A stretch of DNA of 64,000 bases from Tepiditoga spiralis (lineage in GTDB: Bacteria; Thermotogota; Thermotogae; Petrotogales; Petrotogaceae): assembly GCF_014701195.1 (NCBI RefSeq), contig NZ_AP018712.1, positions 1,506,501 through 1,570,500 of the forward strand. The letters are read 5' to 3'. This document shows, piece by piece, positions 53,699 through 57,681 of the stretch. The notes under the pieces are model-generated. The model saw only the letters and a list, made by a program, of their open reading frames with translations, did not search any database and was not told the DNA's origin. Positions within the stretch are counted from its first letter, which is position 1. The number at the start of each line of letters is the position of its first letter. A program made the position numbers and the translations under genes.

Positions 53699-55063
53699 AT
53701 GGGGATTCCTGCAGAATGGACTATATTAATAGTCACTTTATCTATTGCGTTTTTACTTTTTTTAACGCAAAAGGTATCAAAAAAAGTTTTGAGTAGAGGA
53801 AAGTATAGAAAAGTTAAAGAAAGTACAGAAGCATATTTATATCTTTTGCCTTCTATGGTTGTTTTAGCTATATTTGTATTTTGGCCTGTAATTTATTCTT
53901 TTATTTTAAGTTTTTATAAATGGGATTTTCAAAATCAGGCAAATCCTATTTTTATAGGATTAAAAAATTATACGAAGCTTTTTACTTTAAAACATAGTAT
54001 TGATATAAGTTTTAATACAGCTTTTTTTAATACACTATTGGTTTTAATGACTTATATATTTTTGATGCATTGGATTTTTGATATAAAAAAAATAAAAGAA
54101 AATACATATAGAAAAATGATAATTTCTATGTCGTTATTAGGAATTATAGGTGTTTTTTTAAGTAATTTATTATTTATAGCTGCTGTTATTATTTCTTTAA
54201 TTATGGTATTTTTATATACATATCTTTCAGCAAAAAAATTTGCATATAATACAAATGATAAACTTATGGGAAGATTAATACTTTTTGCAATAGTTTATAC
54301 AATTTCTGTAAAAATAGGTGTTGTTGAGATAATTAATTTTTTAAATGCAGCTAAAGAAGAATCTGATTTTATAAAATCTATTTGGAATACTTCATATTAT
54401 GTTTTGCTATCTACTCCTATAACAATATTTTTAGCTCTATTAATTGCACTTTTGTTGAATAGAAAACTATTTGGCAAAACAGTTTTTAGAACTATTTATT
54501 TTATTCCTTTTGTAACAAGTGTTGTAGCAGTATCTCTTGTTTGGCAATGGATATTTAATGATAATGGTTTATTAAATTATATTTTAGGATTTTTTGGATT
54601 ACAAAAAACCTTATGGCTAAAAGATGCTAAGTATACAATTCCGACTGTTGCAATAATATCAATATGGAAATTAGTTGGATATTATTCGGTTATATTTCTC
54701 TCAGGTCTTCAAAATATTGATAAATCATATTATGAAGCTGCAGAAGTTGATGGGGCAAACACATGGCATCAATTTAAATTTATTACTTGGCCGTTATTAT
54801 CCCCAACCACATTTTTTATATTGATTGTATCTATGATAGGTGCTTTTAAGGTTTTTTCAGAAATTTTTGTTTTATATTCGGGAATGCCTGGTCCTTACAA
54901 CAATAGTGGACTTACTGTCGTGTACTATATCTATGATAAATTTTATAGTGAACAAAGAATGGGAGAAGCCAGTGCTGCTGCATATGTACTGTTTGGTATA
55001 ATTCTTATGTTTACATTTATACAGATAAAGGCCGGCAAAAATAAAGTTCATTATGATAATTGA
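53699..55063 (+). CDS. MalF-like sugar ABC transporter permease
   Basis: 454 residues, longer than usual (about 300). N-terminal membrane helix, then a conserved LPSMVVLAIFVFWPVIYSF helix, extra membrane helices at about 100-215, and the standard core with EAA loop YYEAAEVDGANTWHQFKF and SMIGAFKVFSEIFVLYSGM. Partner of the following MalG-like gene. No binding protein or ATPase gene is next to it. Start ATG after GGAGGTATTG, 28 bases past fliI. Confidence 0.85.
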   Translation: MGIPAEWTILIVTLSIAFLLFLTQKVSKKVLSRGKYRKVKESTEAYLYLLPSMVVLAIFVFWPVIYSFILSFYKWDFQNQANPIFIGLKNYTKLFTLKHSIDISFNTAFFNTLLVLMTYIFLMHWIFDIKKIKENTYRKMIISMSLLGIIGVFLSNLLFIAAVIISLIMVFLYTYLSAKKFAYNTNDKLMGRLILFAIVYTISVKIGVVEIINFLNAAKEESDFIKSIWNTSYYVLLSTPITIFLALLIALLLNRKLFGKTVFRTIYFIPFVTSVVAVSLVWQWIFNDNGLLNYILGFFGLQKTLWLKDAKYTIPTVAIISIWKLVGYYSVIFLSGLQNIDKSYYEAAEVDGANTWHQFKFITWPLLSPTTFFILIVSMIGAFKVFSEIFVLYSGMPGPYNNSGLTVVYYIYDKFYSEQRMGEASAAAYVLFGIILMFTFIQIKAGKNKVHYDN

Positions 55064-55077
55064 GGAGGACTACTAAT

Positions 55078-57309
55078 ATGGATTATAAAAAATTTTGGAA
55101 AACAATTAGTTCAACATTTATATATTTATTGGTTGCAGGTGGAGCCGTAGTTATGATATTACCATTTGCATGGATGATAATGACATCATTAAAAACAGAT
55201 GGTGAAGTTAACTCTTGGCCACCATCTTGGATTACAAAAAATTTTAAAAGTGAAAATATTGTGAATGTAATCCCTGAATCATCAACATTTTCATCTAAAG
55301 GAACTCTAAGTTTGGCGGAATTTAGAACATTATCAAAAAAAATTGAGTATAATCCTTACAAAGTAAATTATTTTATTGATGATGATCCATTGAGAAGAGG
55401 TGTTGTAACTCTTAAAATAAATAATCTTACTTATACCGATAATGAAAAACTTAAAGTTTTAATGAATAAAATATTTGAATATTTAAATGTAAATGACGTT
55501 AGAAAAGATTTAAAAACAAAGATTATAGATAAAGATTTGACTTCTGAAAACTTTGAAAAAATTTATTTTTCTCTTTTTTCAAAAGAAGATGGTTATTATA
55601 AAAAAACTAATATTATAAAGAATATTTTATTAGATTTAAATAAAAGCTCTAAATTTTTAGAAATATTGGAACAAAAAAACATAAATAGATTACCTCAATT
55701 TAGATTAAAATCAAATATGACACAAGAAGAAAAAGATGAAATAAATTCTTCAAAAGATAAATTTAAGAGTTATATAATAAGTTTAAATGATAAAATAAAA
55801 AAAGTATCAAAAGACATTGAAGAGTATTCAAAAGGATTAGGAATTATTAAATTTGAAACATCTAAATCAATTGAGTTAGAATTAAAAAATCTTTCAAATA
55901 ATTTCATAAAATATAATGATAAAATTTTATCTAAAACTAATTTGTTAATGAGTAAAAATATATATAATAAAGTAAATGAAAATATTTTAACTTTAAATTT
56001 TTATAATGAATTTTTTACATTATACAAAAAAATTCAAAATAAAAATGTAAATGATTTTGTAGTAAAATTTGTTATACCTCAAAAAAAGGATATGTATAAC
56101 AATATAATATCTAATATTAAAATTTCGGATTTTCCAAAATATTTTAAGGATAAAGTAATAGAATTAGCTTCTGTCAGCAAAATTTTGAAATTAAAAGATA
56201 ATGTGGTTAATTATTATGAAAATTCAATAATAAATGAAATAAAAAATAATTATATAAGAAATTCAGATGAGCTATCAAAAATTATAGAGATTTTAAGAAC
56301 TCTTTCTAAAAATAATGCAAATTTATCAAATGCAAATTTATATATTTCAAAAAATGATTTAAGTTTGTTAAATAAAAATATAAAAGGAAAAGAAGAAGAA
56401 TTTTTACAGACTTTAAATAAAAGAAGAGAATATGATTCATTATTTGAAAAATTTGGAACTTTTTTTGAAAATAATATATCAAAGGCAAAAATATTAGAAG
56501 GAAATGATTATATAAAAGAAGTTTTATTTAAAAATAATTCTAATATAGTATTTTATACAAAAAATATGTATTCTTCGTGGTTGTTTGATGAAAAGCCTGA
56601 AGTTAAAGTTAAATATACTTTTTCACAAGTAATAGCTAATATATTTCAAAATTATGTAGATGCTTGGAATGCTGCACCATTTTCTAAGTATTATGCGAAT
56701 ACAGTTTTAATGGCATCAATGACTACTATACTTGAAATAATATTTGCATCTATGGCTGCATTTGCATTTGCAAAATTTAATTTTTTTGGAAAAAACTTTA
56801 TATTTTCATTATTTCTTGCTACTATGATGGTTCCTGGTGAAGTAATGCTTGTCCCAAATTATATTACAATAAGTAGATTTCAATGGATAGATACTTATTA
56901 TGCTCTTATAGTACCTTGGATAGTAAGTGTTTTTGCAATTTTCCTATTAAGACAGCAATTTATGACTATACCAAATGATTTATGGGATGCTGCAAAAATT
57001 GATGGTTCTTCGAGCTGGAGGTTTTTATGGACAGTAATGGTACCATTAAGCAAACCATCAATTGTAACTGGAGCTTTACTAAAGTTTGTTGGTAGCTGGA
57101 ATGCTTTTTTATGGGTTTTAATAGTTACAAAAACACCAGAGATGAGAACTCTTGCCGTTGGATTACAAACTTTTAGATCTGAGTCAGGAGATATTTATAA
57201 TCTTATGATGGCAGCATCAACATTTTCTGTGTTACCAATTGTAATAATATTTATTTTACTGCAAAAATATTTTGTTGCTGGAATTTCAAGGTCTGGATTG
57301 AAAGGCTAA
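55078..57309 (+). CDS. MalG-like permease with a very large extracytoplasmic insert
   Basis: 743 residues from ATG 55078 (GAGGAGG just upstream; the frame is open six codons further). A normal MalG has about 280-300. The first helix (residues 12-36, AGGAVVMILPFAWMIMTSL) is followed by roughly 440 residues, Lys/Asn/Glu-rich and helical, before the permease core resumes at FSKYYANTVLMASMTTILE. The EAA loop (DAAKIDGSSSWRFLWTVMVP) and the end GISRSGLKG are intact. I recall long MalG proteins in Thermotoga, so this is a lineage trait. The insert probably contacts the binding protein or substrate outside. Confidence 0.85.
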   Translation: MDYKKFWKTISSTFIYLLVAGGAVVMILPFAWMIMTSLKTDGEVNSWPPSWITKNFKSENIVNVIPESSTFSSKGTLSLAEFRTLSKKIEYNPYKVNYFIDDDPLRRGVVTLKINNLTYTDNEKLKVLMNKIFEYLNVNDVRKDLKTKIIDKDLTSENFEKIYFSLFSKEDGYYKKTNIIKNILLDLNKSSKFLEILEQKNINRLPQFRLKSNMTQEEKDEINSSKDKFKSYIISLNDKIKKVSKDIEEYSKGLGIIKFETSKSIELELKNLSNNFIKYNDKILSKTNLLMSKNIYNKVNENILTLNFYNEFFTLYKKIQNKNVNDFVVKFVIPQKKDMYNNIISNIKISDFPKYFKDKVIELASVSKILKLKDNVVNYYENSIINEIKNNYIRNSDELSKIIEILRTLSKNNANLSNANLYISKNDLSLLNKNIKGKEEEFLQTLNKRREYDSLFEKFGTFFENNISKAKILEGNDYIKEVLFKNNSNIVFYTKNMYSSWLFDEKPEVKVKYTFSQVIANIFQNYVDAWNAAPFSKYYANTVLMASMTTILEIIFASMAAFAFAKFNFFGKNFIFSLFLATMMVPGEVMLVPNYITISRFQWIDTYYALIVPWIVSVFAIFLLRQQFMTIPNDLWDAAKIDGSSSWRFLWTVMVPLSKPSIVTGALLKFVGSWNAFLWVLIVTKTPEMRTLAVGLQTFRSESGDIYNLMMAASTFSVLPIVIIFILLQKYFVAGISRSGLKG

Positions 57310-57318
57310 GGTGATATA

Positions 57319-57681
57319 GTGCCATATATAAGTTTAAATAATGGTAATATTGAAAATAATAAAAAAAATAAAAAAAGTTATAAACCACGGAAATTATCCG
57401 TGGTTTTTCTGGCAATTATTTTAATTTTTTTAATATTTCAAATTTTTAGAATGATTAATACATATAATGAATTACAATTAAAATATTCAGAACAAAGTAA
57501 AAAATTAAAAGCAGTGAATAAAATTTATATTGAAAAATTAAAAATACTAGAAAATTTAAAAGATAAATTAAGTGAAAGAGGTGTTGGAATAAATGGAAAA
57601 TCAATCTATGAAGTGGATATTCACAACGTCGCACAAACCAGCCAAGCAACAAGTACTAAAAGCACAACACCTAGCAACTAA
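57319..57681 (+). CDS. FtsB/DivIC-like septum protein
   Basis: 120 residues, GTG start after GGTGATAT. One membrane helix at about 29-47 (VVFLAIILIFLIFQIF) then a coiled coil (ELQLKYSEQSKKLKAV), the FtsB/DivIC layout. From residue 90 the tail (GKSIYEV... QTSQATSTKSTT) is Ser/Thr/Gln-rich, unlike the family, and is encoded by the same bases as the start of the next gene, 89 nt in another frame. The real family region ends before that. Assignment rests on topology, not on sequence signatures. Confidence 0.55.
   Translation: MPYISLNNGNIENNKKNKKSYKPRKLSVVFLAIILIFLIFQIFRMINTYNELQLKYSEQSKKLKAVNKIYIEKLKILENLKDKLSERGVGINGKSIYEVDIHNVAQTSQATSTKSTTPSN

Follow-up and report, generated by a model that had tools for sequence, protein, structure and literature searches.

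The product of positions 55078..57309 of the window, the 64,000-nucleotide stretch of Tepiditoga spiralis DNA analysed here, is a CUT1 MalG/UgpE-type ABC permease in which an insert in the P1 loop, between the first transmembrane helix and the core, most likely folds into a genuine extracytoplasmic domain. A UgpB-like binding protein encoded far from malFG probably works with this permease pair, and we tentatively propose that the insert helps to dock it. The features on which the analysis draws are as follows.

53699..55063, plus strand: malF-like permease partner of the UgpA/MalF type, 454 aa, immediately upstream of malG.
55078..57309, plus strand: malG-like permease with a giant insert, 743 aa from an ATG preceded by GAGGAGG.
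55102..55191, plus strand: transmembrane helix 1 (TM1) of the malG product (hydropathy; helix 3-37 in the predicted model).
55225..56619, plus strand: the insert, in the TM1-TM2 loop (P1 loop) of MalG (alignments, hydropathy, predicted models).
55252..55434, plus strand: N-terminal strands with a DDPxxRG motif (predicted secondary structure, conserved columns; mean pairwise identity 0.34).
55441..56031, plus strand: first helical excursion, fast evolving (predicted secondary structure; insert residues 73-269).
56041..56073, plus strand: strand separating the two helical excursions (predicted secondary structure).
56083..56478, plus strand: second helical excursion, fast evolving (predicted secondary structure; insert residues 287-418).
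56488..56613, plus strand: C-terminal strands (predicted secondary structure; identity 0.33).
56713..57306, plus strand: permease core, highly conserved, with a DAAKIDG (EAA-type) motif and a C-terminal GLKG tail.

The open frame of malG spans 55060-57309 from a TTG start (749 aa), and the ATG at 55078 is its likely start, since GAGGAGG lies directly 5' of it and the position agrees with the starts of orthologues. Hydropathy places the first hydrophobic segment at residues 15-44 and the second from residue 548 (749-aa numbering), with five such segments in the core C-terminal to the insert. Pfam family PF00528 (BPD_transp_1) spans residues 560-743 only (78.6 bits, Pfam cut-off 26.4), and motifs of the EAA type, a hallmark of this permease type, were read in both subunits (DAAKIDG in MalG, EAAEVDG in MalF). 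The best NCBIfam models for MalG, MalF and the UgpB-like protein were those of the UgpBAEC system, all scoring far below their equivalog cut-offs: UgpE (138.6 bits against 297), UgpA (94.9 against 335) and UgpB (88.7 against 411), respectively. A frame error as the source of the long MalG was ruled out, because most orthologues also show a long open frame and the insert can be aligned across the phylum. Between malG and the methyltransferase/miaA genes, positions 57319-57681 of the window encode a small protein whose single hydrophobic segment is accompanied by a charged tail, and short frames resembling it occupy the equivalent place in several relatives.

MalF had also been described as long, which holds for its 454 aa, the surplus consisting largely of hydrophobic N-terminal segments and not of a soluble loop. 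It was found in 97 of the 103 genomes of the class, being missing in G030, G031, G041, G073, G036 and G094. At several loci (L068, L080; G092, contigs C13 and C6) malG follows an mnmA-like gene with malF elsewhere, so that the permease genes are separable. We take TM0595, TM0596 and TM0598 to be names of Thermotoga genes.

The original prediction of about 440 extra residues between helix 1 and the core of MalG was borne out by a count of about 465, and its description of them as charged and helical stood in part: the net charge is +19 (14.9% Lys, 12.8% Asn, no Cys or His), whereas strands are predicted at both ends and in one stretch of the middle. No segment between residues 44 and 548 (749-aa numbering) exceeded the hydropathy threshold used, in agreement with the claimed lack of a membrane segment, and the P1 loop of MalG-type permeases is extracytoplasmic by the usual topology of the family. 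Nor does the insert have a counterpart in the UgpE of the window, the core of which starts at about residue 53 of 279 aa, compared with 519 of 743 in MalG (BLAST starts). Modelling with AlphaFold2 from 29 sequences gave a pLDDT of 78.5 for the whole of MalG and, for the insert alone, a pLDDT of 87.3 and a pTM of 0.75, with pLDDT below 50 at 20 of 478 residues. In the predicted insert, strands from both ends and one middle strand flank the two helical excursions, the longest helices reaching 36 residues; we read these strands as one base, judging from the printed secondary structure rather than from an output of the sheet itself. An all-helical insert was dropped as an interpretation since the models contain strands, and disordered filler was dropped in view of the confident model.

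Across the 29 sequences, mean pairwise identity was 0.75 in the core, 0.33-0.34 at the ends of the insert and 0.185 in its helical part, whilst insert length ranged from 459 to 542 residues. Comparison of the insert alone with the PDB by Foldseek returned nothing at E<=0.001 (best E-value 0.2). A second structural aligner retrieved mostly helical bundles, including the TorS and McpS sensor domains, with Z up to 10.1, a level common for helical bundles, and the best 50 matches of the full-length MalG model were permease cores and helical bundles. These searches of solved structures, which also bear on a possible MalF-P2 fold, thus gave no confident match to the insert. The one weak Pfam match, RPAP3_C, scored 18.1 bits, below its cut-off of 23.

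As the sole query, the insert found relatives in 63 of 121 genomes. Whole MalG had matches in 98 of the 103 genomes of the class, some of them core-only or on short or broken frames (G020, G035, G036, G078), together with two short relatives outside the class (G114, G115). Named loci with a long MalG included those of Marinitoga, Petrotoga, Fervidobacterium, Thermosipho, Pseudothermotoga, Mesoaciditoga and Kosmotogales, amongst others. Broken malG frames were detected in G015 (a TAG), G078, G081 and the draft genome G020; in G081, the long MalG is spread over two frames, 150 and 545 aa in length (L163:5427-7513), and it is whole in two other genomes of the genus. Disorder together with absence from close relatives had been set beforehand as the outcome that would count against the original prediction; on both points the opposite was found, the insert being predicted well folded and kept across the phylum. 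In family f5, a second MalG of 566 aa is matched by the insert HMM chiefly at the ends of the insert, with little of the helical part, suggesting that the helices may be dispensable in this copy. Two f5 genomes read gene by gene carry a second operon in which the 566 aa MalG is accompanied by two or three binding proteins of the same broad family (L165:1743-8639; L166:3766-9297).

Consistent with the earlier observation that no binding protein adjoins malFG, none was found at any of 31 named Thermotogota loci: no frame had one of the genome's own binding proteins as its best match at E<=1e-6, in a scan of up to 10 kb per side with several loci cut by contig ends. The search for the cognate protein by genome context, as had been suggested, yielded a separate UgpB-like protein of 431 aa (G000:C1:788102-789394 = L051:4103-5398), located about 770 kb from malFG, downstream of what by eye are pgi-like and coaE-like genes, with no permease adjoining. 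The genome holds eight SBP_bac_8 matches, five of which adjoin CUT1 permeases, and the five other CUT1 MalG genes found (279, 323, 404, 444 and 868 aa) each stand beside a binding protein. Two further SBP_bac_8 proteins stand apart from permeases, one visible by its start only (L045) and one (L046:1342-2541) directly after a regulator that by eye looks to be of the sigma-54 type, and the latter may serve in sensing and not in transport.

Three lines of genomic evidence indicate that the UgpB-like orphan probably works with malFG. Orthologues of it occur in 96 of 103 genomes and are missing, along with MalF and MalG, from G030, G031, G041 and G073. Scoring MalG against the orphan across the 103 genomes gave 95 with both, four with neither, three with MalG only and one with the binding protein only, where G048 (best match 31% identical) was scored as without the binding protein and G047, G048 and G101 are only 71-79% complete; the Fisher p of 3.9e-5 ignores kinship and overstates the association because the genomes are related. 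As a control, the orphan was set against the MalG1-type insert, which showed no clear association (81 both, 3 neither, 4 MalG1 only, 15 binding protein only; p 0.10). In all seven genomes of genus g30, the UgpB-like gene and malG lie on the same contig at most about 1.5 kb apart, and gene-by-gene reading of three of them shows the UgpB-like gene next to malF and divergently transcribed. Finally, all seven inspected sister-group permease loci of other phyla (L093, L095, L106, L107, L108, L110 and L123) stand beside homologues of the orphan, two members of the UgpB-like family tying as the neighbour's best match at L107. Four other loci were mixed (UgpB-like family as best match at L101 and L082, a different protein at L127, none seen at L086), all such assignments of neighbouring binding proteins having been made by best match against a reference set of only about ten.

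The importer therefore looks complete, with its genes merely scattered. As the genome has a single OB_MalK match, and so one MalK-type ATPase, which lies outside the malFG operon, this ATPase would be shared with other importers. The importer seems to be decaying in places within genus g24, where the binding protein is broken in G091 and not found in G095, and MalF is short in G050 (L170:3940-5204; L169; G050:C1:278993-279958); G095 keeps a long open MalG and has no binding protein at E<=1e-30. Binding proteins share a mean identity of 0.55 over 32 orthologues, a genome set other than that giving 0.75 for the core. The lipobox pattern was present in none of 38 aligned binding proteins, 32 of which are these orthologues. 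Among the relatives in other phyla, which have no such domain, two from Bipolaricaulota likewise have binding proteins lacking a lipobox, indicating that the insert does not merely stand in for a lipid anchor.

The closest solved relative of the orphan is the protein of PDB 7c14/7c0f (118 bits, against 76-79 for the two best UgpB entries), which we take to be the U3G dinucleotide binder of Thermus thermophilus; the orphan differs from it in that the position equivalent to Ser266 is Ile or Val in 29 of the 32 orthologues, and from UgpB in having no tryptophan clamp (alignment, by eye). Binding of U3G by a Thermus protein is described in PMC12718374, where the account of the UgpB/GPC/U3G group has phosphate contacted by two Tyr and two Ser. 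Three of these four positions, transferred by motif via the window's own UgpB, are kept in the orphan (Tyr in 31 of 32 with one gap, Ser in 32 and Tyr in 32), whilst the second Ser is present in 2 of 32, with Thr in 1. Continuation of the malFG operon of genus g30 with a CehA/McbA-type metallohydrolase was also observed, and neighbours at L110 and L095 encode enzymes of the metallo-beta-lactamase fold, one of them scoring as RNase J-like, though far under the cut-off. A phosphodiester is a possible ligand, and these residues and neighbours hint, weakly, at a phosphate-containing ligand akin to glycerophosphodiesters or dinucleotides, a suggestion we rate as somewhat improbable though far from fanciful.

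For the insert itself, our preferred reading is that of an accessory docking cradle for the UgpB-like protein, which by analogy would serve as MalF-P2 does in E. coli; we hold it tentatively, at slightly under an even chance. An old CUT1 importer would consist of MalF, MalG, the genome's single MalK-type ATPase and the soluble UgpB-like protein, with the insert standing beside the docking surface for the latter and capturing or orienting it. The working face would be formed by the better conserved strand-rich ends, and the variable helices would act as a spacer or make a second contact. What favours this reading is the combination of a folded domain in the P1 loop with a soluble binding protein encoded far away. 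Precedents are found in titles: that of Daus 2007, cited in PMC3150292, has E. coli MalG P1 contacting MalE, and those in PMC3328499 have the large extracytoplasmic MalF-P2 domain, likewise part of a CUT1 permease, interacting with the binding protein. The role would, however, be built into the other subunit, as MalF-P2 comprises 180 aa between MalF helices 3 and 4 according to the section concerned in PMC2246101, whereas the insert lies between helices 1 and 2 of MalG and bears two helical excursions. A strict version of docking is disfavoured: the helical part evolves far faster than the core, suggesting no strict docking face on the helices, and the reduced f5 copy and the MalG proteins of G095 and G091 without an intact binding protein also speak against it. 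Relatives in other phyla, moreover, manage without such a domain.

The original prediction had allowed for a built-in docking or binding part, and these two halves fared differently, docking being reasonable and a built-in binding protein unlikely now that a separate, co-occurring UgpB-like protein has been found. Most families have no binding protein beside malFG, as would be expected of a substrate-binding domain that replaced one, but the existence of the separate protein, together with the empty Foldseek search and the mostly helical-bundle matches of the second aligner, makes this highly improbable. An envelope tether or recruiting domain, reaching peptidoglycan, the outer toga or a hydrolase and positioning the importer without touching the binding protein, would suit the long helices of the model, their fast evolution and variable length, and the metallohydrolase gene into which the g30 operon runs on. 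The Pfam search of the insert nevertheless gave no known cell-wall-binding domain, and the better conserved parts are the ends joining the membrane helices and not the helices of the insert, which leaves a tether unlikely. We also doubt, to about the same degree, that P1 is an expandable loop that tolerates insertions without special function, the domain being a stabiliser of a thermophilic complex or baggage. The same loop is enlarged in three other MalG proteins of the genome and, by 70-104 residues, in 4 of 51 related permeases of other phyla; conversely, the insert is kept in nearly all Thermotogota tested, conserved motifs mark its ends, and broken frames are few (G015, G078, G081 and the draft G020), which is unexpected of 1.4 kb of neutral baggage.

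Those enlargements support the view that the P1 loop may accept domains. The 444 aa MalG (L050:4181-5515 = G000:C1:980183-981514) carries a PDZ domain there (PF13180, 41 bits), and its matches in 76 other genomes are frames of 192-310 aa, so that the PDZ insertion looks recent and lineage-specific. In the 404 aa MalG (L048:7500-8714), encoded beside an N-acetylglucosaminidase (PF07555), about 130 extra residues without a Pfam match occupy the loop, an addition kept in 28 other genomes (frames of 392-425 aa), and the 868 aa MalG has about 580. Outside the Thermotogota, the distance from TM1 to the core was at most 10 residues in 47 of 51 permeases from 48/49 loci, taken from frames of every length, against 474 here. 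The remaining four, at 70-104 residues, comprise one Bipolaricaulota locus and three of Opitutaceae (L118, L120 and L126, about 104 residues each), so the loop is enlarged outside the phylum too. The P1 loop has probably been enlarged more than once.

An oversized MalG has been known since 2008, when MalG1 and MalG2 of Thermotogales were described as having some 500 hydrophilic residues of unknown function between transmembrane helices 1 and 2 (Noll et al. 2008, PMC2246101), the one paper on the long MalG among those that literature searches listed. A MalG-type permease with a hydrophilic insert between helices 1 and 2 is common to both cases, and the same loop, similar size and same phylum would suit a single insert; that the present one is the published insert is nonetheless very unlikely. 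MalG1 and MalG2 belong to malEFG operons and to an enteric-like Mal lineage (PMC2246101), whereas the MalG described here falls in a UgpE-like clade and mostly has no adjoining binding-protein gene. The malG gene at 55078 is not part of malEFG: the genome carries that operon elsewhere, with the 868 aa MalG representing the long form described in 2008 (L047:3969-6575), and none of the 31 named loci showed a binding protein, the one adjoining malFG in genus g30 being of the UgpB-like kind. In a FastTree core tree of 15 of the 29 sequences, one Thermotoga copy and 8 MalG1 cores, the insert-bearing clade was monophyletic (support 0.86), included the second f5 copies, and grouped with G114 and with Bipolaricaulota and Firmicutes permeases having no such insert, while the MalG1 cores formed a separate, far-off clade. 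Alignment of the insert profiles with hhalign covered 100 columns, only at and just after TM1, at a probability of 75%, and the insert HMM found none of nine MalG1-type proteins, two of which are cut. The simplest account would be one insertion on the stem of the Thermotogota clade, independent of that in MalG1, although the short core alignment and poorly conserved insert leave doubt, and the two inserts may yet be distantly homologous. On this comparison of sequences, the MalG described here looks like a separate, independent case.

More broadly, the P1 loop of MalG could be a plug-in site of the Thermotogota, an idea we consider speculative and rather unlikely. Several importers sharing one ATPase would bear different domains there, be it PDZ, a shorter one of about 130 residues, strands topped by helical towers or a long helical one, and each would capture or gate its cognate binding protein. 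The insert described here would then serve as a docking platform which, by securing the pairing, allowed the genes of a scattered, phylum-wide importer to drift apart. If the account of the insert and its importer given here is right, it would name the parts of an importer kept by nearly every tested Thermotogota genome, mostly without a revealing gene neighbourhood, and would indicate that oversized MalG loops arose more than once, calling for a common reason. It would also offer a direct test case for whether a MalG-borne domain does the job of MalF-P2, and would bear on how a single shared ATPase serves several importers in Thermotogota.
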